DNA of 64,000 nt from Aquipseudomonas ullengensis (lineage in GTDB: Bacteria > Pseudomonadota > Gammaproteobacteria > Pseudomonadales > Pseudomonadaceae). This document shows, piece by piece, positions 9,781 through 21,459 of the stretch (position 1 is its first letter; each line of letters begins with the position of its first letter). Below the pieces are notes generated by a model that was not told where the DNA came from, did not search any database, and was given only the letters and a program-made list of their open reading frames with translations. The position numbers and the translations under genes were made by a program. Where the stretch lies: the NCBI RefSeq assembly GCF_014174475.1, contig NZ_JACJUD010000001.1, positions 682,001-746,000 on the forward strand. Direction: 5' to 3'.

Positions 9781-10719
9781 TCAGAGCGGGGTCAGCAGCT
9801 CACCGTTATCGATAAAGGCCTGCAGGTTGGCCAACACCAGTTCCTCCATCTGCAGGCGGGTTTCCTCGGTGCCGCTGCCGACATGCGGCAACAGCACCAC
9901 GTTGGGCAAACTGAACAAGGCCTCCGGCACCCTGGGCTCGGCCTCGAACACATCCAGCCCGGCGCCTCCCAGCGTACCGGCCAGCAAGGCCGCCACCAGC
10001 GCCGGCTGGTCGACCACGCTGCCGCGGGAGATATTGATCAGGATGCCCTGTGGCCCCAGCGCTTCCAGCACAGCGGCGTCGATCAGGTGATGGGTGGCCG
10101 CACCACCCGGGCAGGCCAGCACCAGGAAATCCGCCCAGCGCGCCAGGGCCAGCAGGTCCGCTTCATAGCCATAGTCGCTGCTCGGGTCGGCGCGGCGGTT
10201 GTGGTAGCGCACCGGCATGGCGAACCCCTCCGCGCGCCGGGCAATGTCCTTGCCGATGCGGCCCAGGCCGACGATGCCCAGGCGCTTGCCGCTGACCTTG
10301 CGCGTCAGCGGGTAATGCCCCGCCAGCCAGCGGCCCTCACGCACGAAACGATCGGCCGCCGGCAATTGCCGGGCGGTGTCGATGACCAGGCCCATGGCCA
10401 GGTCGGCCACGCAGTCGTTGAGCACATCCGGCGTGGTGCTGATGGCGATGCCGCGCTGGCGTGCGACCTCCACCGCGATGGCGTCGTAGCCGACACCAAA
10501 GCTGCAGATCGCCCGCAGGTTAGGCAGGCACTCAAGCAGCGCGGCGCTGCAACCGAAGCGCGCCGACGTCACCAGCACCTCGAACTGCGCGCCGTGCTCG
10601 GCGAGATAACCCAGGGCATCCGCCTGTTGCCACAACTGCACCACATCACGCCCCTGCAACAGGCGCTGATTGAAACGCTCGGTCAGCGGGCCGACATGCA
10701 CGATACGCACAGCACTCAT
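9781..10719 (-). CDS. D-2-hydroxyacid dehydrogenase (glyoxylate/hydroxypyruvate reductase-like)
   Basis: A 312-residue NAD(P)-dependent D-isomer hydroxyacid dehydrogenase. The Rossmann motif is G151-L-G-R-I-G156, and the catalytic Arg-Glu-His triad is visible as R232 (I-S-R-G), E261 (F-E-A-E-P) and H279 (L-P-H-V-G-S). It resembles glyoxylate/hydroxypyruvate reductases of the GhrB/GyaR type. It starts 19 bp after garD in the same direction with an AGGAGG site and is probably the last gene of the kdgD-to-garD operon. No step of the oxidative uronate pathway needs it, so its substrate here is unknown; a keto-sugar acid side product or tartronate semialdehyde are guesses. Confidence 0.87.
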   Translation of the reverse strand: MSAVRIVHVGPLTERFNQRLLQGRDVVQLWQQADALGYLAEHGAQFEVLVTSARFGCSAALLECLPNLRAICSFGVGYDAIAVEVARQRGIAISTTPDVLNDCVADLAMGLVIDTARQLPAADRFVREGRWLAGHYPLTRKVSGKRLGIVGLGRIGKDIARRAEGFAMPVRYHNRRADPSSDYGYEADLLALARWADFLVLACPGGAATHHLIDAAVLEALGPQGILINISRGSVVDQPALVAALLAGTLGGAGLDVFEAEPRVPEALFSLPNVVLLPHVGSGTEETRLQMEELVLANLQAFIDNGELLTPL

Positions 10720-10738: not shown

Positions 10739-12295
10739 TCAAGTCACCGGTGCCGGGTTGAACAGGGTCAGGTCGTTGTGCAGCTTGTGCTTTTCCGCCC
10801 AGGTCTGCTGCTTGCCGCTGGCCACGTCCAGATAGAGCTGGAAGATATGCCAGCCCATTTCCTCCAGGGTCATGCGCCCGGAGGTGATCTGCCCGGCATC
10901 GACGTCGATCAGGTCCGGCCAGCGCTCGGCCAGCTGGGTGCGCGTGGCCACCTTGATCACCGGCACCATGGCCAGGCCGTAGGGCGTGCCGCGACCGGTA
11001 GTGAAGATGTGCAGGTTCATCCCGGCAGCGATCTGCAGGGTGCCACAGATGAAATCGCTGGCCGGCGTGGCACAGTAATACAAACCCTTGCCGCGAATCC
11101 GCTCGCCGGGCGAAACCACCCCGGCAATGGCGCTGGAGCCGGACTTGGCGATCGAGCCCATGGCCTTTTCGACGATGTTGTTGAGCCCGCCCTTCTTGTT
11201 GCCCGGCGTGGTGTTGGCGCTGCGATCAGCCATGCCGCGTTCCAGGTAACGGTCGTACCACTCCATCTCGCGGATCAGCGCATCGGCCACCTCGACACTG
11301 GCGGCGCGCGGGGTAAGCAGGTGAATGCCGTCACGCACCTCGGTGTTCTCGGAAAACATCACCGTGGCCCCGACACGCACCAGCAGGTCGGCGGCGACGC
11401 CCAGCGCCGGGTTGGCGGTGATCCCGGAGAACGCATCGCTGCCCCCGCACTGCATGCCGACCACCAGCTCGGCCGCCGGCACCGTCTCGCGGCGGCGCTG
11501 GTTCAGCACCTTCAGACGCTCCTCGATCATCGCCATGATCTGCTCGACCATGCCGGCAAAGCCGCTGCTGGAATCTTGCAGGCGAAACAGCCAATCCTCC
11601 TCGTCCATGCCATGGGTCAGCGCATCGCCGTCCATCAACTGGCTGGCCTGCAGCTTCTCGCAACCGAGGCTGATGACCAGGGCCTGGCCGCCGAGATTGG
11701 GGTTGCGGCTGATGTTGTACAGGGTACGAATCGGCACCACCGCATCCGGCGCGTTGATCGCCACACCACAGCCGTAGCTGTGGGACAGCGCCACCACATC
11801 GTCGACATGCGGGTAGCGCGGCAACAGCTCCTTGCGCACACGCTCGACGCAATGCCCCAGCACACCCACCACGCACTGCACGGTGGTGGTCACGCCGAGA
11901 ATATTGCGCGTGCCGACCGTGCCGTCCGGGTTGCGGAAGCCCTCGAAGGTGTAGCCCTCCAGCGGCTCGACAGCAGGTGCCGGCAAGGTGGCCTTGGGCA
12001 GGTTGTCCAGCGCCGGCGCGGCGGGCATGCGCAACTGCGCCTCGGTAACCCAGCGCCCGGCCGCAATGGGTTCCAGGGCATAGCCGATGACTTCGCCATA
12101 GCGCACCACCTCGCCGTCCACGGCAATGTCCTGCAGCGCCACCTTGTGGCTCTGCGGGATACCTTCGACAGCTTCCAGGCCATCGGCGAAACGGCCACCC
12201 TTGGCGACACCCTGCTCATTGACCACCACGCCGACATTGTCAGACGGATGCAGGCGGATGTAGCGCGGCGAATCTTGGTGCGGGATCAACTGCAT
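10739..12295 (-). CDS. garD: galactarate dehydratase GarD
   Basis: A 518-residue UxaA/GarD-family dehydratase. The SAF-like N-terminal domain (about 10-90) has H-K-V-A-L, and the large domain has the G-T-R-N family motif (G-x-V-G-T-R-N-I), S-H-S-Y-G-C-G and the [17 protein letters not shown] stretch. It dehydrates galactarate (meso-galactaric acid) to 5-keto-4-deoxyglucarate, using iron or another divalent metal. Same strand as gudD, the aldehyde dehydrogenase and kdgD, so probably one operon. The 279-bp gap to gudD holds a permease remnant. Confidence 0.93.
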
Positions 12296-12320
12296 GATTC
12301 AGGCTCTTCTGGCTAATGCG

Positions 12321-12548
12321 TCAGGCGGAAACCAGGCGGTGGCCGCCCGTGGACTCGGTTGCGGATTCATCGCTGCGCCGGGCACCGCCCTGGCTGGGGT
12401 CATCCTTGAGGTCCAAGCGCTGAATCTTGCCAACGAAGACCAGCGCCCACTTGAACGACCCCGTGGCACTGATCAGGATCAGGTAGCGCAGGTCTTGCAC
12501 AGCATGTTTGTTCTTATCGGGGTCGTTGTCCGGCTGGCGCCGCGCCAC
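12321..12548 (-). pseudogene. remnant of an MFS glucarate/galactarate permease (gudP/garP-type C terminus)
   Basis: The frame between gudD and garD contains I-S-A-T-G-S-F-K-W-A-L-V-F-V-G followed directly by K-I-Q-R-L-D-L-K. In GudP/GarP-type major facilitator permeases these segments occur near the C terminus but are separated by one membrane helix (about 15-20 residues). Here that helix is missing, and everything before the first segment is gone (unrelated sequence M-A-R-R-Q-P-D-N-D). The position between two aldarate dehydratase genes is where gudP usually lies. I read this as a permease gene eroded by at least two deletions. The family match is from memory of the sequences, not a search. 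Confidence 0.62.
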
Positions 12549-12574
12549 CGCAGTGGCACGGCGTCGCCACAGCT

Positions 12575-13918
12575 TCAGCGCACCAGGCAGGGACGCTTGT
12601 TGTCGAACGTCCAGCCAGGAATCAGGTACTGCATGGCGATGGCATCGTCACGCGCGCCCAAGCCCTTCTGCTGGTACAACTCATGGGCGCGCGCCAAGGC
12701 GTCCCAGTCCAGCTCCACACCCAGGCCTGAACGCGTGGGCACCTTGACCTTGCCGCCGACGATCTGCAGCGGCTCGCGGGTCAGGTACTGGCCGTCCTGC
12801 CAGATCCAGTGGGTGTCGATGGCAGTGATCCGCCCCGGCGCCGCGGCGGCGACCTGGGTGAACATCGCCAGGGAAATGTCGAAGTGGTTGTTCGAGTGCG
12901 AGCCCCAGGTCAGGCCCCAGTCGTTGCACAACTGAGCGACCCGTACCGAACCGCTGAGGGTCCAGAAATGCGGATCGGCGAGGGGAATATCCACCGACTG
13001 CTGCTGCACCGTATGCACCATCTGCCGCCAGTCCGTGGCGATCATGTTGGTGGCCGTGGGCAAGCCGGTGGCACGGCGGAACTCGGCCAGCACTTCGCGC
13101 CCGGAGTAACCGTTCTCGGCCCCGCACGGGTCTTCGGCATACGCCAGTACCCCGTGCAGGTCGCGGCACAGCGCAACGGCCTGCTTGAGCGACCAGGCAC
13201 CGTTGGGGTCGAGGGTGATACGTGCCTGCGGGAAGCGTGCGGCCAGGGCGCGGATCGCCTCGACCTCCTGTTCGCCGCTGAGCACACCGCCCTTCAGCTT
13301 GAAGTCGTGGAAGCCGTAGCGCGCATGGGCCGCCTCGGCCTGGCGGACGATGGCCTCGGCATCCATGGCGGTGCGATTACGCTCGCGGAACCAGGCGTCG
13401 CCGGCCTCGCGCTCGTCGCGGTAATCGAGGTCGGTGGCGTCCTTGTCGGCGATGTAGAACAGATAACCGAGCATCTCCACTTCGTCACGCTGCTGGCCTT
13501 CACCGAGCAGGGCGGCCATGGGCACCTCGAGGAACTGCCCGAGCAAGTCGAGCAGGGCCGACTCCAGCGCAGCCACCGCATGGATGGTAATGCGCAGGTC
13601 GAAGGTCTGCAGGCCGCGGCCACCGGCATCACGCTCGGCGAAGGTCTGGCGCACGCGATTGAGCAGCGCGTTGTACTGGCCGATCGGCTGGCCGACGACC
13701 AGGCTGCGAGCGTCTTCCAGGGTCTGGCGAATGCGCTCGCCACCGGGAACTTCACCCAGGCCGATGCGCCCGGCATCGTCCTTGAGAATCAGGATATTGC
13801 GTGTAAAGAACGGGCCGTGGGCACCGCTCAGGTTGAGCAGCATGCTGTCCTGGCCGGCGACCGGGACCACGAGCAACTCGGTGATGCGCGGGGTTTGCGC
13901 AGGTGACACTGTGTTCAT
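12575..13918 (-). CDS. gudD: glucarate dehydratase GudD
   Basis: A 447-residue enolase-superfamily glucarate dehydratase. All catalytic positions known from E. coli GudD appear with an offset of two: K207-x-K209 (F-K-L-K-G), metal ligands D237, E268 and N291, then D315 and H341 in the G-S-H-S-N-N-H motif. It converts D-glucarate (and L-idarate) to 5-keto-4-deoxyglucarate, the product also made by GarD, so the two dehydratases converge. An AACAATAA motif (13931-13938) lies just before the ribosome binding site. It is 83 bp downstream of the aldehyde dehydrogenase. Confidence 0.95.
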
Positions 13919-14001: not shown

Positions 14002-15444
14002 TTAGCCGATGTAAGTGGTCTTCACCGTGGTGTAGAACTCCGCCGCGTAGCGACCCTGCTCGCGCGAGCCGTAGGACGAGCCTTTGCGGCCACCGAACGG
14101 CACGTGGTAATCGACCCCGGCAGTGGGCAGATTGACCATGACCATGCCGGCCTGGGCATGACGCTTGAAGTGGTTGGCGTACTTCAGCGAGGTGGTGGCG
14201 ATCCCGGCGGAGAGGCCGAATTCGGTGTCGTTGGCCATGGCCAGCGCGGCCTCGTAGTCCGCCACGCGCACCACGTTGGCCACCGGGCCGAAGATTTCCT
14301 CACGGCTGATGCGCATCTCGGCGGTGCTGTCGGCAAACAGCGTCGGCGCGAGGAAGTACCCTTCGGTGTCGCAGGTCACCAGACCACCACCGCTGACCAG
14401 GCGCGCACCCTCGTCCTGACCGATGCCGATGTAGCGCAGGTCCTGGTCGAGCTGAGCCTGGGAGACCACCGGGCCGATGTCGGTACCGGCCTTGAGGGCG
14501 TGGCCGACCTTGATCGATTTCATCCGCTCGGCCACCGCCTCGACAAACCTGTCGTGGATGCCCGCAGTGACGATCAGCCGACTGGACGCCGTGCAACGCT
14601 GGCCCGTGGAATAGAAGGCGCTCTGCACCGCCAACTCGACCGCCAGTTTCAGGTCCGCGTCGTCGAGGATCACCTGCGGGTTTTTGCCGCCCATCTCCAG
14701 CTGGACCTTGGCGCCACGGGCCACGCAGTTGGCGGCAATGGTGCGACCCACGCCGACCGAACCGGTGAAGCTGATGCCATCGACGCGCTTGTCACCGACG
14801 ATGGCTTCACCCACTACCCGGCCACTGCCCATCACCAGGTTGAACACGCCGGCCGGGAAGCCGGCGCGGGAGATGATTTCGGCAATCGCCCAGGCGCAGC
14901 CCGGTACCAGATCCGCCGGTTTGAGCACCACGCAGTTGCCGTAGGCCAGAGCCGGGGCAACCTTCCAGGCGGGGATGGCGATCGGGAAGTTCCACGGGGT
15001 AATCAGGCCGACCACGCCCAGCGGCTCGCGGGTGACTTCCACCGATACGCCCGGACGCACCGACGGCAGGATCTCACCGGCCAGGCGCAGGCACTCACCG
15101 GCGAAGAACTTGAAGATGTTGCCGGCGCGGCTGACTTCGCCGATGGCTTCGGGCAGGGTCTTGCCCTCTTCCCGGGCCAGCAGGCTGCCGAGCTCCTCGC
15201 GGCGGGCGAGGATTTCGCTGCCGACCTTGTCCAGCGCATCGCTACGGGCCTGGATCCCCGATGTCGACCAGGCCGGGAACGCGGCGCGCGCGGCCTCGAT
15301 GGCCTGCGCCACCTGGGCGGCGTCGGCCTGGGCATATTCACCCACCACGTCAGCAAGATCGGACGGGTTGATGTTCGCCGAATAGCTGGCACCGGCGACC
15401 CACTCGCCACCGATGTAATTGTCGTAACGCTTGCTATCTGCCAC
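14002..15444 (-). CDS. 2-oxoglutarate semialdehyde dehydrogenase (aldehyde dehydrogenase family)
   Basis: A 480-residue NAD(P)-dependent aldehyde dehydrogenase. Counting from the GTG at 15444, N152 (P-W-N-F-P), general base E250 (Q-L-E-M-G-G) and nucleophile C284 (G-Q-R-C-T) are intact. The start is GTG because AGGAGA lies 6 nt before it; a GTG seven codons further upstream has no such site. Coming after KdgD in the same operon, it should oxidise 2-oxoglutarate semialdehyde to 2-oxoglutarate, the last step of the pathway. Succinate-semialdehyde activity cannot be excluded from sequence. Confidence 0.88.
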   Translation of the reverse strand: MADSKRYDNYIGGEWVAGASYSANINPSDLADVVGEYAQADAAQVAQAIEAARAAFPAWSTSGIQARSDALDKVGSEILARREELGSLLAREEGKTLPEAIGEVSRAGNIFKFFAGECLRLAGEILPSVRPGVSVEVTREPLGVVGLITPWNFPIAIPAWKVAPALAYGNCVVLKPADLVPGCAWAIAEIISRAGFPAGVFNLVMGSGRVVGEAIVGDKRVDGISFTGSVGVGRTIAANCVARGAKVQLEMGGKNPQVILDDADLKLAVELAVQSAFYSTGQRCTASSRLIVTAGIHDRFVEAVAERMKSIKVGHALKAGTDIGPVVSQAQLDQDLRYIGIGQDEGARLVSGGGLVTCDTEGYFLAPTLFADSTAEMRISREEIFGPVANVVRVADYEAALAMANDTEFGLSAGIATTSLKYANHFKRHAQAGMVMVNLPTAGVDYHVPFGGRKGSSYGSREQGRYAAEFYTTVKTTYIG

Positions 15445-15472
15445 GAGGATTCTCCTGTCAGTCACGGGCGGC

Positions 15473-16384
15473 TTATTGCGCGCCCTGGGCCTTGATCAGC
15501 TCGGCGAGCATTTCGTACTCGTTGGGCAACAGATCGGTCAGCGGCGCACGCACCGGACCGGCGTCGTAGCCAGAGATTTTCGCCCCGGCCTTGACGATGC
15601 TCACGGCATAGCCGGCCTTGCGGTTACGGATATCCAGATACGGCAGGAAGAAGTCATCGATGATCTTGCCGACGGTTTCGTGGTCATCGCGGGCGATGGC
15701 ACGGTAGAAGTCCATCGCGGTTTTCGGGATGAAGTTGAACACCGCCGAGGAATACACCGGCACACCCAGGGCCTTGTAGGCCGCGGCGTAGACTTCCGCG
15801 GTCGGCAGGCCGCCGAGGTAGCTGAAGCGCTCGCCGAGGCGGCGGCGGATCGACACCATCAGCTCGATATCGCCCAGGCCGTCCTTGTAGCCGATCAGGT
15901 TCGGACAGCGCTCGGCCAATTGCTCCAGCAGCGGCGCAGTCAGGCGGCAGACGTTGCGGTTGTAGACCACCACACCGATTTTCACCGACTTGCAGACTTG
16001 CTCAACGTGCGCAGCCACACCTTCCTGGCTGGCTTCGGTCAGGTAGTGCGGCAGCAGCAGCAAGCCCTTGGCACCCAGGCGCTCGGCTTCCTGGGCCATC
16101 TGGATGGCCTGACGGGTCGGACCACCGACACCGGCGAGAATCGGCACGGAGCCGGCGCAGGTGTCCACAGCGGTCTTGATGATCTGCGAATACTCGGCGC
16201 CATCGAGGGAAAAGAATTCGCCAGTGCCACCCGCCGCAAACAGTGCCGAAGCACCGTAGGGCGCCAGCCACTCCAGGCGGCGGGCGTAGCTGGCTGGGTT
16301 GAATTCACCCGCGGCAGTGAAGTCGGTTACCGGAAAGGACAGCAACCCGGAAGAGAGGATGGACTTGAGTTCTTGTGGATTCAT
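15473..16384 (-). CDS. kdgD: 5-dehydro-4-deoxyglucarate dehydratase KdgD
   Basis: A 303-residue class I aldolase-fold (DapA/NanA) enzyme that dehydrates and decarboxylates 5-keto-4-deoxyglucarate to 2-oxoglutarate semialdehyde. The A-A-G-G-T-G-E-F-F substrate loop (about 50-58), V-Y-N-R-N tyrosine (Y141) and the Schiff-base lysine in I-G-Y-K-D (K167) are visible. The start at 16384 gives M-N-P-Q-E-L-K-S, the normal family start; the open frame upstream is promoter DNA. It is the first gene of the minus-strand operon kdgD-aldehyde dehydrogenase-gudD-garD-hydroxyacid dehydrogenase, with a GntR-type operator 62 bp upstream. Confidence 0.93.
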
Positions 16385-16445
16385 TATTCGAACACCCTGA
16401 AAAGCAGTTATGAAGGTGGCCTGAGATCTTCGGCACGAGAGATAC

Positions 16446-16458
16446 GTTATCGTACAAC
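16446..16458. promoter_or_regulatory. GntR-type operator at the kdgD promoter
   Basis: GTTATCGTACAAC, identical to the site at 6626-6638 and one transition from a perfect palindrome. It lies 62 bp before the kdgD start and overlaps a possible -10 box, so binding there would shut off the catabolic operon. Confidence 0.65.
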
Positions 16459-16691
16459 TATGAAGATTGCCAACAAGCAAATCATTCCGCCGGTCGCCGG
16501 CAGCGCCGGCAAATCACGCCAGGGCACCGAGGCATCCGCCCGTCGTGCCCTGTGCAAACCGCAAGAGCCCCTGATTACGGGCACCTCAAGGCCTTATACA
16601 ATTTCAAAAGGCCACCACGGCAGCGCCCATACGACATCTTTTGGCCATACTAACGCGCCAGCCCGGTAGCGAATTTTCTACTTAAGTCACG

Positions 16692-16786: not shown

Positions 16787-17608
16787 ATGACCACGACTCC
16801 CACCGCCCATCCCCGTCTGCCGCGCCTGCTCCTGACCGGTGCTGCCGGAGGTCTCGGCAAGGTTCTGCGCCAGAGCCTGCGCCCTTACGCTGACGTGCTG
16901 CGTGTTTCCGATATCGCCGCCATGGACCCGGCCGCCGGCCCCCATGAAGAAGTGGTGCCCTGCGACCTGTCCGACAAGGCGGCCGTGCACGCCCTGGTCG
17001 AGGGTGTCGACGCCATCCTGCATTTCGGCGGCGTCTCGGTGGAGCGGCCCTTCGAGGAAATCCTCGGCGCCAACATCAGCGGCACCTTCCATATCTATGA
17101 AGCCGCTCGCCGTCACGGCGTAAAGCGCGTGGTGTTCGCCAGCTCCAACCATGTGATCGGCTTCTATAAGCAGGATGCGCCACTCGACGCCCACTCGCCG
17201 CGCCGCCCGGATGGCTACTACGGGCTGTCCAAGTCCTACGGCGAGGACATGGCCAACTTCTACTTCGACCGCTACGGCATCGAGACCGTGAGCATCCGCA
17301 TTGGCTCCTCGTTCCCCGAGCCCGCCAACCGCCGAATGATGCACACCTGGCTGAGCTTCGCCGACCTGACCCAGCTGATCGAGAAATCCCTGTTCACCGC
17401 CAACGTCGGCCACACCGTGGTCTACGGCGTATCGGACAACGCCCAGGTGTGGTGGGACAACCGCTATGCCACGCACCTGGGCTTTGCCCCCCAGGACAGC
17501 TCTGAAGTGTTTCGCGCCAAGGTCGAAGCGCAGCCGCCCGTGGCCGCCGATGACCCGGCCGCGGTCTACCAGGGCGGTGCGTTTGTCGCCGCTGGCCCCT
17601 TCGAATAG
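16787..17608 (+). CDS. udh: uronate dehydrogenase Udh
   Basis: A 273-residue short-chain dehydrogenase (extended NAD epimerase type). It has nucleotide motif T17-G-A-A-G-G-L-G24 and catalytic Y145-x3-K149 (Y-Y-G-L-S-K), with family motifs H-F-G-G-V-S-V-E and S-S-N-H-V-I-G-F-Y. It closely resembles Pseudomonas and Agrobacterium uronate dehydrogenases, which oxidise D-galacturonate and D-glucuronate with NAD+ to the 1,5-aldarolactones. It is the first gene of the operon udh-lactonase-dctPQM and the entry step of the pathway. Confidence 0.94.
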   Translation: MTTTPTAHPRLPRLLLTGAAGGLGKVLRQSLRPYADVLRVSDIAAMDPAAGPHEEVVPCDLSDKAAVHALVEGVDAILHFGGVSVERPFEEILGANISGTFHIYEAARRHGVKRVVFASSNHVIGFYKQDAPLDAHSPRRPDGYYGLSKSYGEDMANFYFDRYGIETVSIRIGSSFPEPANRRMMHTWLSFADLTQLIEKSLFTANVGHTVVYGVSDNAQVWWDNRYATHLGFAPQDSSEVFRAKVEAQPPVAADDPAAVYQGGAFVAAGPFE

Positions 17609-17657: not shown

Positions 17658-18539
17658 ATGCAAGCTGAACTGATAGTCGATGCACGCAACGCCGTGGGTG
17701 AAAGCCCGGTGTGGAACGCCCAGGAACAGGCCCTGTACTGGGCCGATATCCCGGCGCGCCGCCTGCACTGCTGGTCTGCCGCCGACGGCAGCAGCCGCAG
17801 CTGGCAAGCCGATGAGATGCTCGCCTGCATCGCCCGCCGGGCCGATGGCCAGGGCTGGATCGCCGGCATGCAGAGCGGCATCTTCCAGTTACAGCCGCAG
17901 CAGGATGGCAGCCTGCAGACCACGGCACTGGCCGGCGTCGAACATGCCCAGGCCGAGATGCGCTTCAACGATGGCCGCTGCGACCGCCAGGGCCGCTTCT
18001 GGGCCGGCAGCATGTGCCTCGACATGGCCGCCGGCGTGCCGGCCGGCGTGCTCTACCGCTTCGCAGACGGCCGGCTGAGCGCCCAGCTCGACGGCTTCAT
18101 CGTGCCCAATGGCCTGGGCTTCAGCCCGGACGGCCGCACCCTGTACCTCTCCGACTCGCACCCCGACGTACAGGCTATCTGGGCCTTCGACTACGACACC
18201 GACAACGGCGAGCCACACAACCGCCGGCTGTTCGTCGACATGCGCCAGCACCTCGGCCGGCCAGACGGCGCCGCGATAGACGCCGACGGCTGCTACTGGA
18301 TCTGCGGCAACGACGCCGGCCTGGTGCACCGCTTCACCCCTGCCGGAAAACTCGACCGATCACTGGCCGTACCGGTGAAGAAACCCGCCATGTGCGCCTT
18401 CGGCGGACCGGGCCTGGACACGCTGTTCGTCACCTCGATTCGCCCCGCCGGCGACCTCTCCGACCAGCCCCTGGCTGGCGGCGTGTTCGCCTTGCAACCG
18501 GGCGTGCGAGGTATCGAGGAGCCGTTGTTCAACGGCTGA
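17658..18539 (+). CDS. SMP-30/gluconolaconase-family lactonase, probable aldarolactonase
   Basis: A 293-residue six-bladed beta-propeller of the SMP-30/regucalcin family. Metal-site motifs are visible: G-E-S-P-V-W (Glu ligand near 15), P-N-G-L-G-F-S-P-D-G (Asn ligand) and A-I-D-A-D-G-C-Y-W (Asp ligand). Located directly after udh, it should hydrolyse galactaro- and glucaro-1,5-lactones to galactarate and glucarate. Gluconolactonase activity cannot be excluded, but context favours aldarolactones. No signal peptide, so cytosolic. Confidence 0.9.
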   Translation: MQAELIVDARNAVGESPVWNAQEQALYWADIPARRLHCWSAADGSSRSWQADEMLACIARRADGQGWIAGMQSGIFQLQPQQDGSLQTTALAGVEHAQAEMRFNDGRCDRQGRFWAGSMCLDMAAGVPAGVLYRFADGRLSAQLDGFIVPNGLGFSPDGRTLYLSDSHPDVQAIWAFDYDTDNGEPHNRRLFVDMRQHLGRPDGAAIDADGCYWICGNDAGLVHRFTPAGKLDRSLAVPVKKPAMCAFGGPGLDTLFVTSIRPAGDLSDQPLAGGVFALQPGVRGIEEPLFNG

Positions 18540-18606: not shown

Positions 18607-19587
18607 ATGAACTTCAAACGCAAATTGCTCATCGCCGCCCTGCCCTTTGCCTTCTGCCTGTCAGGCACCGCCCACGCCCTGAGCATCAAGTTCGCCGAAG
18701 TGCACCCCGCCGGCTATCCGCCGGTGGTGGCTGAACAAGCCATGGGCAAGAAGCTGGAAGAGCAATCCAAGGGCGAGATCACCTTCAAGATGTTCGCCGG
18801 TGGCGTGCTCGGCTCGGAAAAAGAAGTGGTCGAGCAGGTACAACTCGGCGCCATCCAGATGACCCGCGTCAGCCTGGGCATCGTCGGCCCGGTGGTGCCG
18901 GACGTTAACGTGTTCAACATGCCGTTCATCTTCCGCGACCAGAACCACATGCGCGCCGTGATCGACGGTCCGGTGGGCCAGGAGATTCTCGACAAGATCA
19001 CTAACTCCGACTTCAACCTGGTGGCCCTGGCGTGGATGGATGGTGGCACCCGCAACCTCTACACCAAGACCCCGGTGCGCAAGATTGCGGACCTCAAGGG
19101 CATGAAGATTCGCGTGCAGGGCAACCCGCTGTTCGTCGACATGATGAACTCCATGGGCGGCAACGGTATCTCCATGGCCACGGGTGAAATCTTCAGCGCC
19201 CTGCAAACCGGCGTGATCGACGGTGCGGAAAACAACCCGCCAACCATGCTCGAACACAACCACTACCAGAACGCCAAGTTCTACACCCTGACCGGCCACC
19301 TGATCCTGCCGGAGCCGGTGGTGATGTCGAAAACCACCTGGGAAAAACTCACCCCCGAGCAACAAGCCCTGGTGCAAAAACTCGCCCGTGAGGCGCAGTT
19401 TGAAGAACGCAAACTGTGGGATGAAAAATCCGCCAGCGCCGAAGCCAAACTCAAAGCCGACGGCGTGGAATTCATCACCCTAAGCGATGCCGAGAAGAAA
19501 GAGTTCGTCGATGCCACAGCCCCGGTTCGGGCCCAGTACGGTGCGCCCTACGCTGAGCTGATCAAGCGCATCGAAGCTGTCCAATAA
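18607..19587 (+). CDS. dctP: TRAP transporter solute-binding protein DctP
   Basis: A 326-residue periplasmic binding protein with a signal peptide (K-R-K-L-L-I-A-A-L-P-F-A-F-C-L, cleavage after A-H-A-L). Family features include the G-x-L-G-S-E-K-E-V-V-E-Q-V-Q-L-G-A-I-Q motif, P-F-I-F-R-D, and G-M-K-I-R-V-Q-G-N-P with the carboxylate-binding arginine, then G-E-I-F-S-A-L-Q-T-G-V-I-D-G-A-E-N-N-P-P. TRAP binding proteins take organic acids, including uronates. Its place in the udh operon suggests galacturonate/glucuronate. Confidence 0.92.
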   Translation: MNFKRKLLIAALPFAFCLSGTAHALSIKFAEVHPAGYPPVVAEQAMGKKLEEQSKGEITFKMFAGGVLGSEKEVVEQVQLGAIQMTRVSLGIVGPVVPDVNVFNMPFIFRDQNHMRAVIDGPVGQEILDKITNSDFNLVALAWMDGGTRNLYTKTPVRKIADLKGMKIRVQGNPLFVDMMNSMGGNGISMATGEIFSALQTGVIDGAENNPPTMLEHNHYQNAKFYTLTGHLILPEPVVMSKTTWEKLTPEQQALVQKLAREAQFEERKLWDEKSASAEAKLKADGVEFITLSDAEKKEFVDATAPVRAQYGAPYAELIKRIEAVQ

Positions 19588-19653: not shown

Positions 19654-20178
19654 ATGAGAAATACGCTGCTGCTCATAAATGACCAGATCTACCGCGCCTG
19701 CATCGGCATTGCCGGTGTGTCGATTCTGGTCATGACCCTGATTATTCCCTGGGGCATTTTTGCCCGTTACGTGCTGGGCAGCGGGTCCAGTTGGCCCGAG
19801 CCCACCGCCATTTTGCTGATGGTGGTGTTCACCTTTTTTGGCGCCGCGGCCAGTTACCGCGCCGGTGCCCATATGGCCGTCGGCATGGCAACCGAGCGCA
19901 TGCCGCCGAACGTGCGCAAGCTGCTCGCGATTGTGGTGCAACTGCTGATGGCGCTGATCTGCGTGTTCATGATCGTCAAGGGTGCCAAATTGTGCGCCGG
20001 CACGTGGAACCAGTACCTCGGTGAAATGCCCTCACTGCGGGTTGGCATCTCGTACCTGCCGATCCCTATCGGTGGCGTGATCACGCTGATCTTCGTACTG
20101 GAAAAACTGCTCCTCGGCGACCAAAGCAAGCGCCGCGTCATGAGCTATGACGTTGAAGAAGCAATGGAGGCCAAGTAA
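19654..20178 (+). CDS. dctQ: TRAP transporter small permease DctQ
   Basis: A 174-residue membrane protein with four predicted helices (about 15-40, 50-70, 88-110, 128-152). It has the family motif W-P-E-P-T-A-I-L-L-M-V-V-F-T-F-F-G-A-A near the second helix. It stabilises the large permease and docks with DctP for sodium-driven uptake. Its stop codon directly abuts the dctM start. Confidence 0.92.
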   Translation: MRNTLLLINDQIYRACIGIAGVSILVMTLIIPWGIFARYVLGSGSSWPEPTAILLMVVFTFFGAAASYRAGAHMAVGMATERMPPNVRKLLAIVVQLLMALICVFMIVKGAKLCAGTWNQYLGEMPSLRVGISYLPIPIGGVITLIFVLEKLLLGDQSKRRVMSYDVEEAMEAK

Positions 20179-21459
20179 ATGGATGCGCTGATACTGTTGG
20201 GCAGTTTTATTGTGCTGATCCTGATCGGCATGCCAGTGGCCTATGCCCTGGGCCTGTCGGCGCTGATCGGTGCCTGGTGGATCGATATTCCGTTTGATGC
20301 CCTGATGATTCAGGTGGCAGGCGGCGTTAACAAATTCTCCCTGCTGGCCATTCCCTTCTTTGTGCTGGCCGGCGCGATCATGGCCGAAGGCGGCATGTCC
20401 CGGCGCCTGGTAGCCCTGGCTGGCGTGTGCGTGGGGTTCGTGCGCGGCGGTCTGTCGCTGGTCAACATCATGGCCTCGACCTTCTTCGGCGCCATCTCCG
20501 GCTCCTCGGTGGCGGATACCGCCTCGGTGGGTTCGGTGCTGATTCCGGAAATGGAAAAGGCCGGCTACCCGCGTGACTACTCCACCGCCGTGACCGTTAG
20601 CGGCTCGGTGCAGGCGCTGCTGACGCCGCCCAGCCACAACTCGGTGCTCTACTCGCTGGCCGCCGGCGGCAGCGTGTCGATCGCCTCGCTGTTCATCGCC
20701 GGCATCGGCCCCGGGCTGCTGCTGAGCGCGGTGATGATGGCCCTGTGCATGGTCTTCGCCCGTAAGCGCAATTACCCCAAAGGTGAAGTGATCCCGCTGC
20801 GCCAGGCGCTGAAAATCGCCGGCGAAGCCCTGTGGGGCCTGATGGCCATGGTGATCATCCTCGGCGGCATTCTCTCCGGCGTGTTCACCGCCACCGAGTC
20901 GGCGGCGATCGCCGTGGTCTGGTCGTTCTTCGTCACCATGTTTATCTACCGCGACTACAAGTGGCGCGACCTGCCCAAGCTGATGCACCGTGCGGGGCGA
21001 ACCATCGCCATTGTGATGATCCTGATCGGCTTTGCCGCCAGCTTCGGCTACATCCTCACCTTGATGGAGATTCCCACCAAGATCACCGCCGTGTTCCTGA
21101 CCCTGTCGGACAACCGCTACGTGATCCTGATGTGCATCAACGTGATGCTGTTGATGCTGGGCACCGTGATGGACATGGCGCCGCTGATCCTGATCCTCAC
21201 CCCGATCCTGCTGCCAGTGATCACCGGCCTGGGTATCGATCCGGTGCACTTCGGCATGATCATGCTGGTCAACCTGGGCATCGGCCTGATCACACCGCCG
21301 GTAGGCGCGGTACTGTTCGTCGGCTCAGCCGTGGGCAAGGTGACGATCGAAGCCACCGTTAAAGCCCTGCTGCCGTTCTATGTGGCGCTGTTTGCAGTGC
21401 TGATGGCCGTGACCTATATCCCTGCCATCTCCCTGTGGCTGCCGAGCGTGGTGCTGTAA
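20179..21459 (+). CDS. dctM: TRAP transporter large permease DctM
   Basis: A 426-residue inner-membrane permease with about 12 helices. It has the DctM signatures I-P-F-F-V-L-A-G-A-I-M-A-E-G-G, F-F-G-A-I-S-G-S-S-V-A-D-T-A-S-V-G and N-L-G-I-G-L-I-T-P-P-V-G, which form the sodium and substrate site. It starts on the base after the dctQ stop, so translation is coupled. It would move hexuronates, captured by DctP, across the inner membrane using the sodium gradient. Confidence 0.94.
   Translation: MDALILLGSFIVLILIGMPVAYALGLSALIGAWWIDIPFDALMIQVAGGVNKFSLLAIPFFVLAGAIMAEGGMSRRLVALAGVCVGFVRGGLSLVNIMASTFFGAISGSSVADTASVGSVLIPEMEKAGYPRDYSTAVTVSGSVQALLTPPSHNSVLYSLAAGGSVSIASLFIAGIGPGLLLSAVMMALCMVFARKRNYPKGEVIPLRQALKIAGEALWGLMAMVIILGGILSGVFTATESAAIAVVWSFFVTMFIYRDYKWRDLPKLMHRAGRTIAIVMILIGFAASFGYILTLMEIPTKITAVFLTLSDNRYVILMCINVMLLMLGTVMDMAPLILILTPILLPVITGLGIDPVHFGMIMLVNLGIGLITPPVGAVLFVGSAVGKVTIEATVKALLPFYVALFAVLMAVTYIPAISLWLPSVVL

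Follow-up and report, generated by a model that had tools for sequence, protein, structure and literature searches.

A very probable relic of a GudP-type permease gene between gudD and garD in Aquipseudomonas ullengensis

What remains between the glucarate and galactarate dehydratase genes of Aquipseudomonas ullengensis, and does it tell which sugar acids this strain can take up? In the stretch of 64,000 nucleotides that was analysed (the window), gudD and garD are separated by a gap of 279 bases, in which the initial annotation had recognised an eroded MFS glucarate/galactarate permease. The genes surrounding this gap are the following:

9781 to 10719, minus strand: gene of the D-2-hydroxyacid dehydrogenase family, downstream of garD (PF02826/PF00389)
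10739 to 12295, minus strand: garD, galactarate dehydratase (TIGR03248, above cut-off)
12575 to 13918, minus strand: gudD, glucarate dehydratase (TIGR03247, above cut-off)
14002 to 15465, minus strand: aldehyde dehydrogenase (PF00171), judging from the cluster probably 2-oxoglutarate semialdehyde dehydrogenase
15473 to 16480, minus strand: kdgD, 5-dehydro-4-deoxyglucarate dehydratase (TIGR03249, above cut-off, matching from residue 35; the true start is probably near codon 33)
16787 to 17608, plus strand: udh, uronate dehydrogenase (matches solved uronate dehydrogenases)
17658 to 18539, plus strand: gene of the SMP-30/gluconolactonase family (PF08450), a probable aldarolactonase
18607 to 19587, plus strand: dctP, TRAP solute-binding protein (PF03480; best solved match 4xfe)
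19654 to 20178, plus strand: dctQ, TRAP small permease (PF04290)
20179 to 21459, plus strand: dctM, TRAP large permease (PF06808; TIGR00786)

The gudD, garD, kdgD, udh and TRAP genes are open frames with family matches, and the TRAP transporter had rightly been described as intact, with dctP, dctQ and dctM all open and adjoining the uronate dehydrogenase gene. Regarding its substrate, 4xfe is the closest match of DctP among solved structures (E = 4.4e-174), and 4xfe, 4x04 and 4n8y are presumably DctP structures with uronate ligands (glucuronate for 4xfe). From this closeness and from the neighbouring genes, the system would be a uronate importer; it stands intact in the window, separate from the relic.

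Among the relatives found to share this island, the nearest is Pseudomonas sp. PDM15 (L070), which has all of it in the same order and, exactly between gudD and garD, an intact permease of 455 aa. This protein matches TIGR00893 (517 bits, cut-off 395), PF07690 and its nearest solved relative, the D-galactonate transporter 6e9n (E = 1.7e-110); the named model that fits it best is that of the D-galactonate transporter family, and a glucarate/galactarate substrate is suggested by its gudD-garD neighbourhood. No relative nearer than L070 was found by comparing the gudD-to-kdgD region across 38 relatives. Moreover, L070 or Pseudomonas sp. Gutcm_11s (L069), which has the permease, no gudD at this place and no close DctP, ranks first among 80 loci for seven genes (garD, gudD, aldehyde dehydrogenase, hydroxyacid dehydrogenase, dctP, dctM and udh), the eighth gene compared, kdgD, being the exception. 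Between the window and L070, DNA identity is 88-89% for garD, gudD and the aldehyde dehydrogenase gene versus 94.7% for dctM (1037 of 1281 nt compared) and 93.2% for dctP, and the TRAP genes are thus well conserved (at the protein level, 94% aa for dctP and 98% aa for dctM over 346 of 426 residues compared). The kdgD gene of the window is closer to L065 and L067 than to L070, and the GarD protein is slightly nearer L065-L068 (93-94%) than L070 (92%); since L065-L068 are loci with the other kind of permease, the genes of the cluster may have mixed histories.

With the intact gene as a guide, the gap can be read, on the minus strand throughout, as follows:

12501 to 12523, minus strand: leader of the permease gene, with ACCCCGATAAGAAC kept and the GTGGGGA/ATGGGGA of L070/L069 missing
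12321 to 12500, minus strand: gudP relic, an open frame of 59 codons running from a GTG aligned with the intact gudP start codon to a TGA
12474 to 12488, minus strand: RYLIL, an N-terminal permease scrap after a 15-nt deletion (alignment with L070, L069, L055, L053 and L106)
12473 to 12474, minus strand: approximate junction of a 1143-nt deletion, joining RYLIL to ISATG (exact breakpoint not placeable)
12429 to 12473, minus strand: segment ISATGSFKWALVFVG, start of the permease's last helix region (alignment to intact copies)
12429 to 12435, minus strand: junction of a 45-nt deletion (CGTCGGC flanks the missing stretch on both sides in L070)
12321 to 12428, minus strand: C-terminal tail KIQRLDLKDDP...RLVSA and stop of the permease (alignment to intact copies)

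Both GudP/GarP C-terminal segments that had been reported at 12321-12548 are indeed present, in one open frame, and they correspond to the C-terminal end of the MFS permease located upstream of garD in relatives. Their direct joining with loss of the intervening helix is also borne out, as 15 codons (ANALVAVFSYLVIVG) are absent compared with five intact copies. The rest of the permease had been considered missing altogether; about 400 codons are gone, but the N-terminal start region, RYLIL and part of the leader (ACCCCGATAAGAAC) had been overlooked and are retained. Homology is recognisable over approximately 12321-12523, and positions 12524-12548, included in the original span, have no convincing homology. 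The relic is therefore collinear with both ends of the intact L070 gene in the alignment (start region with RYLIL, ISATGSFKWALVFVG and tail), and it occupies the same slot between gudD and garD. The L070 permease aligns to the gap with 40.0 bits, against 23.9 bits for the best of 1000 dinucleotide shuffles, of which 330 gave any match, ruling out chance similarity. As the translation of the relic (P0001) has no Pfam or NCBIfam match, no whole-protein MFS model recognising it, and about 400 codons are missing, it is a pseudogene and not a working permease. Taken with the intact permease in the L070 slot, these observations make it very probable that the feature is what decay has left of a gene for a GudP-type MFS aldarate permease, a well-documented pseudogene reflecting ordinary gene loss.

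GudP-type permeases sharing the start region and the C-terminal segments with the relic precede garD in L070 (455 aa), L069, L055 and L053, the L070 copy being also directly after gudD; compared with these intact genes, the window copy has lost the roughly 400 codons and a presumed ribosome-binding stretch. Among the carriers of glucarate and galactarate in E. coli, PMC12076931 lists GarP and GudP. The same job as that of the glucarate permeases GudP/GarP of E. coli and GudT of Salmonella is assumed here from gene neighbourhood. Two kinds of permease, 64% identical, can be distinguished among the relatives, namely kind A (like L055) and kind B (like L057). The relic is of kind A, not kind B, since a stretch of 16 residues including ISATGSFKWALVFVG is identical at 15 positions to the L059 permease and at only 10 or 11 to those of L054, L056 and L057. 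Kinds A (L055, L070) and B (L057, L065 and others) share the slot before garD in different Pseudomonas, a distribution that suggests in-place replacement of one by the other.

How the gene was reduced was mapped on five intact copies (L070, L069, L055, L053 and L106; L104, in which the script's motif was not found, was dropped). From RYLIL to TTCAAGTGG, the distance is 1173 nt in all five and 30 nt in the window, corresponding to a loss of 1143 nt, and a further 15 nt of coding sequence have disappeared between the start codon and RYLIL; the breakpoints of these two losses are not exactly placeable in the alignment. The third coding loss, the 45 nt specifying ANALVAVFSYLVIVG, follows the core, and since this stretch has CGTCGGC on either side in L070, slippage or recombination between these short repeats is suggested as its origin. 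In the leader, the GTGGGGA of L070 or ATGGGGA of L069 is gone, a stretch whose position makes it a presumed Shine-Dalgarno sequence.

The GTG at 12500 in the window aligns with an ATG in L070 and L069 and with a GTG in L055, and the 59-codon frame that it opens reaches its stop 25 nt ahead of garD. The N-terminal scrap had at one point been taken as out of frame, counting from the leader ATG; this was dropped because the GTG start of L055 aligns with the window GTG. Each of the three coding deletions (15, 1143 and 45 nt) has a length divisible by three, and the stop of the tail is still reached in frame; this speaks against plain decay, which would produce it about 1 time in 27 if lengths are random (a rough estimate of our own). 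The remnant could have persisted as a short frame that is still translated, deletions that keep the frame being favoured because they avoid polarity on garD from untranslated RNA, with translation continuing up to the garD start. Besides the frame-keeping losses, the aligned start codon (L055 has GTG there and L070 ATG), the stop just before garD and the preference of window-only changes for third codon positions speak for such a frame. However, the odds of three frame-keeping deletions by plain decay are not tiny, the window lacks the stretch with GGGG that precedes the start codon in relatives, so that weak initiation at the GTG is expected, the leader ATG starts another frame, which stops after eight codons, and the relic is seen in one genome only. 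We consider this reading rather unlikely. Still less favoured is its selective elaboration, in which successive frame-keeping deletions would have trimmed the permease down to a 59-codon translated spacer shielding garD from polarity, which would make it a natural example of an operon gene being removed under selection to keep the frame.

The same open frame contains one hydrophobic stretch (YLILISATGSFKWALVFVG, mean hydropathy 1.52), and it might be taken for a new functional single-helix membrane peptide. This is very improbable: the hydropathy is borderline, there is no clear ribosome-binding site, and the frame has no family match and is absent from the other genomes searched. An assembly error, with the permease intact in the organism, was also considered, as a single assembly of this lineage was seen; it was rejected as extremely improbable, the locus lying deep inside a 1.22 Mb contig and the gap holding diverged scraps with three separate losses, hardly the product of a misassembly. 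Decay of a once intact permease gene is thus the reading retained.

Regarding the age of this loss, 15 of the 78 kept coding bases (the core) differ from L070, 11 of them at third codon positions, and gudD differs at 147 of 1341 bases, 111 of them at third positions. Where the five intact copies agree, the window carries a different base at seven positions, five of which are third positions (p = 0.014). Because the differences fall mostly at third codon positions, most of the divergence looks to have arisen while the permease was still coding, and the loss looks fairly recent. The core is nonetheless more diverged from L070 than gudD is (15/78 versus 147/1341, p = 0.04), an excess that sits poorly with a very recent loss and would leave some time for decay thereafter.

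Among relatives, we searched 398 same-genus genomes with the DNA of 12290-12600 (311 bases, E <= 0.001) and obtained matches in 232; nearly all the matches listed are 35-45 nt coding for ISATGSFKWALVFVG, the few others concerning other parts of the query. Where both were matched, the ISATGSFKWALVFVG DNA lies just upstream of the garD start (e.g., G010 and G027). Twelve same-genus stretches were inspected, and in 11 of them a permease-like frame of 441-481 residues is the longest frame before garD; L060, the remaining stretch, has a different frame as its longest, and the segment of the relic still matches there. Within the best 80 of 576 garD loci, the fetched stretch contains a permease match covering 400 residues or more in 54, and no such match in 26. 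In 22 loci the gap upstream of garD contains no permease, and no convincing relic was detected there either (best 20.4 bits); five of them (L107-L109, L111 and L112) have a permease further upstream. In these five, the gene order is kdgD, aldehyde dehydrogenase, a GudD relative, permease, gudD and garD, the extra gene being 37% identical to GudD. In L120-L122, L124-L127, L129-L135, L138 and L144, the gudD-garD spacing is 113-255 nt with neither a permease nor a convincing relic, and the rest of their genomes yielded no close GudP (best 29%, L120). The same deletion was not found in any relative among the 398 same-genus genomes, 398 same-family genomes (E <= 1e-28) and the best 80 of 576 garD loci; the two genome draws overlap and each comes from a larger group, and nearer relatives may be missing, as records very close to the window may be left out. 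The relic is thus seen in a single genome. Plasmid matches came from 43 records, and all 20 records listed match at the gudD end only. In the titles and abstract openings of the open-licence papers listed, none dealt with gudP loss in Pseudomonas.

The initial annotation had gone one step further and proposed that the relic records a switch, in which a TRAP transporter arrived and replaced the MFS permease. Several facts point that way: the genome of the window has a TRAP system and no close GudP, L069 has GudP and no close DctP, and DctP is present in 18 of 19 GudP-less genomes versus 18 of 30 GudP-bearing ones (Fisher p = 0.008, not corrected for descent). These numbers come from 50 genomes hand-picked from the 80 loci (all of the 26 whose fetched stretch lacks a permease and 24 of the 54 whose stretch has one), 37 of which have DctP; GudP was counted as present from about 55% identity upwards across most of its length and DctP at E <= 1e-70, and L118 (best GudP match 46%, DctP present) was excluded from the comparison of 19 with 30. 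In L110, L118, L124 and L128 the analysed stretch begins within 2.1 kb of garD, and L057/L088, L058/L080 and L060/L104 are apparently the same genomes and hence not independent. Replacement is not supported, however, as L070, in its syntenic island, and nine further loci (L074-L077, L080, L081, L092, L093 and L108) carry dctP and a full-length GudP in one stretch, i.e., 10 of the 80 loci, and as 18 of the 30 GudP-bearing genomes also have DctP. Moreover, the 19 GudP-less genomes comprise 11 named Stutzerimonas, five with similar loci (L120, L124, L126, L135 and L138), P. indica and PIC25, which are alike, and P. aegrilactucae (L117), which has no close match to either GudP or DctP; mostly they seem to be one clade with few independent losses, and the association is therefore suggestive only. 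TRAP and MFS transporters are also usually viewed as serving different substrates. A switch by replacement is accordingly quite unlikely. Since L070 and the nine further loci carry both systems, the TRAP system most likely predates the loss of the permease, on grounds of shared descent. A weaker form of the switch, in which TRAP uptake made the permease dispensable, is more likely and fits the 18-of-19 association.

Judging from the gene order in L070, the ancestor would have had an operon of kdgD, aldehyde dehydrogenase, gudD, gudP, garD and hydroxyacid dehydrogenase beside udh, the lactonase gene and the TRAP genes. The permease would then have been removed mainly by the single internal loss of 1143 nt, together with the losses of 15 nt, 45 nt and the presumed ribosome-binding stretch. 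Such a loss would be tolerable if the TRAP system imports uronates and if uronate dehydrogenase and the lactonase make aldarates inside the cell; gudD and garD would remain useful with no aldarate importer because uronates would become aldarates intracellularly. PMC5114784 outlines an oxidative route of this type, in which uronates are converted to 2-oxoglutarate by way of uronate dehydrogenase, glucarate dehydratase and KdgD.

Searching the genome with a kind-A permease gave only MFS proteins of at most 28% identity and nothing at the site of the relic, i.e., no other close GudP. The strain thus probably has no permease of this type devoted to aldarates, though other carriers may exist. It is predicted to grow poorly or not at all on glucarate or galactarate supplied from outside, while still growing on glucuronate or galacturonate. 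The locus thus offers a clear prediction of usable sugar acids (uronates yes, external aldarates probably not), and gudD and garD alone are no proof of growth on glucarate. Clusters with garD and no close GudP recur in relatives, 18 of 19 with a uronate-type TRAP binding protein, and the gudD and garD enzymes of GudP-less clusters may often serve uronate oxidation only.

Finally, other irregularities were seen in these clusters. In L058 (741-3536) and L080 (4165-6960), probably one genome, kdgD matches as two fragments separated by about 1.9 kb, a pattern resembling either an incomplete second copy of kdgD or an insertion in the gene. L072-L077 have two kdgD matches in a row, the second being broken up in L075. 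In Pseudomonas sp. KNUC1026 (L141; G723:C1:3174051-3175414), a GudP relative is apparently split over two frames, one with an internal stop, and is a possible second decayed permease.
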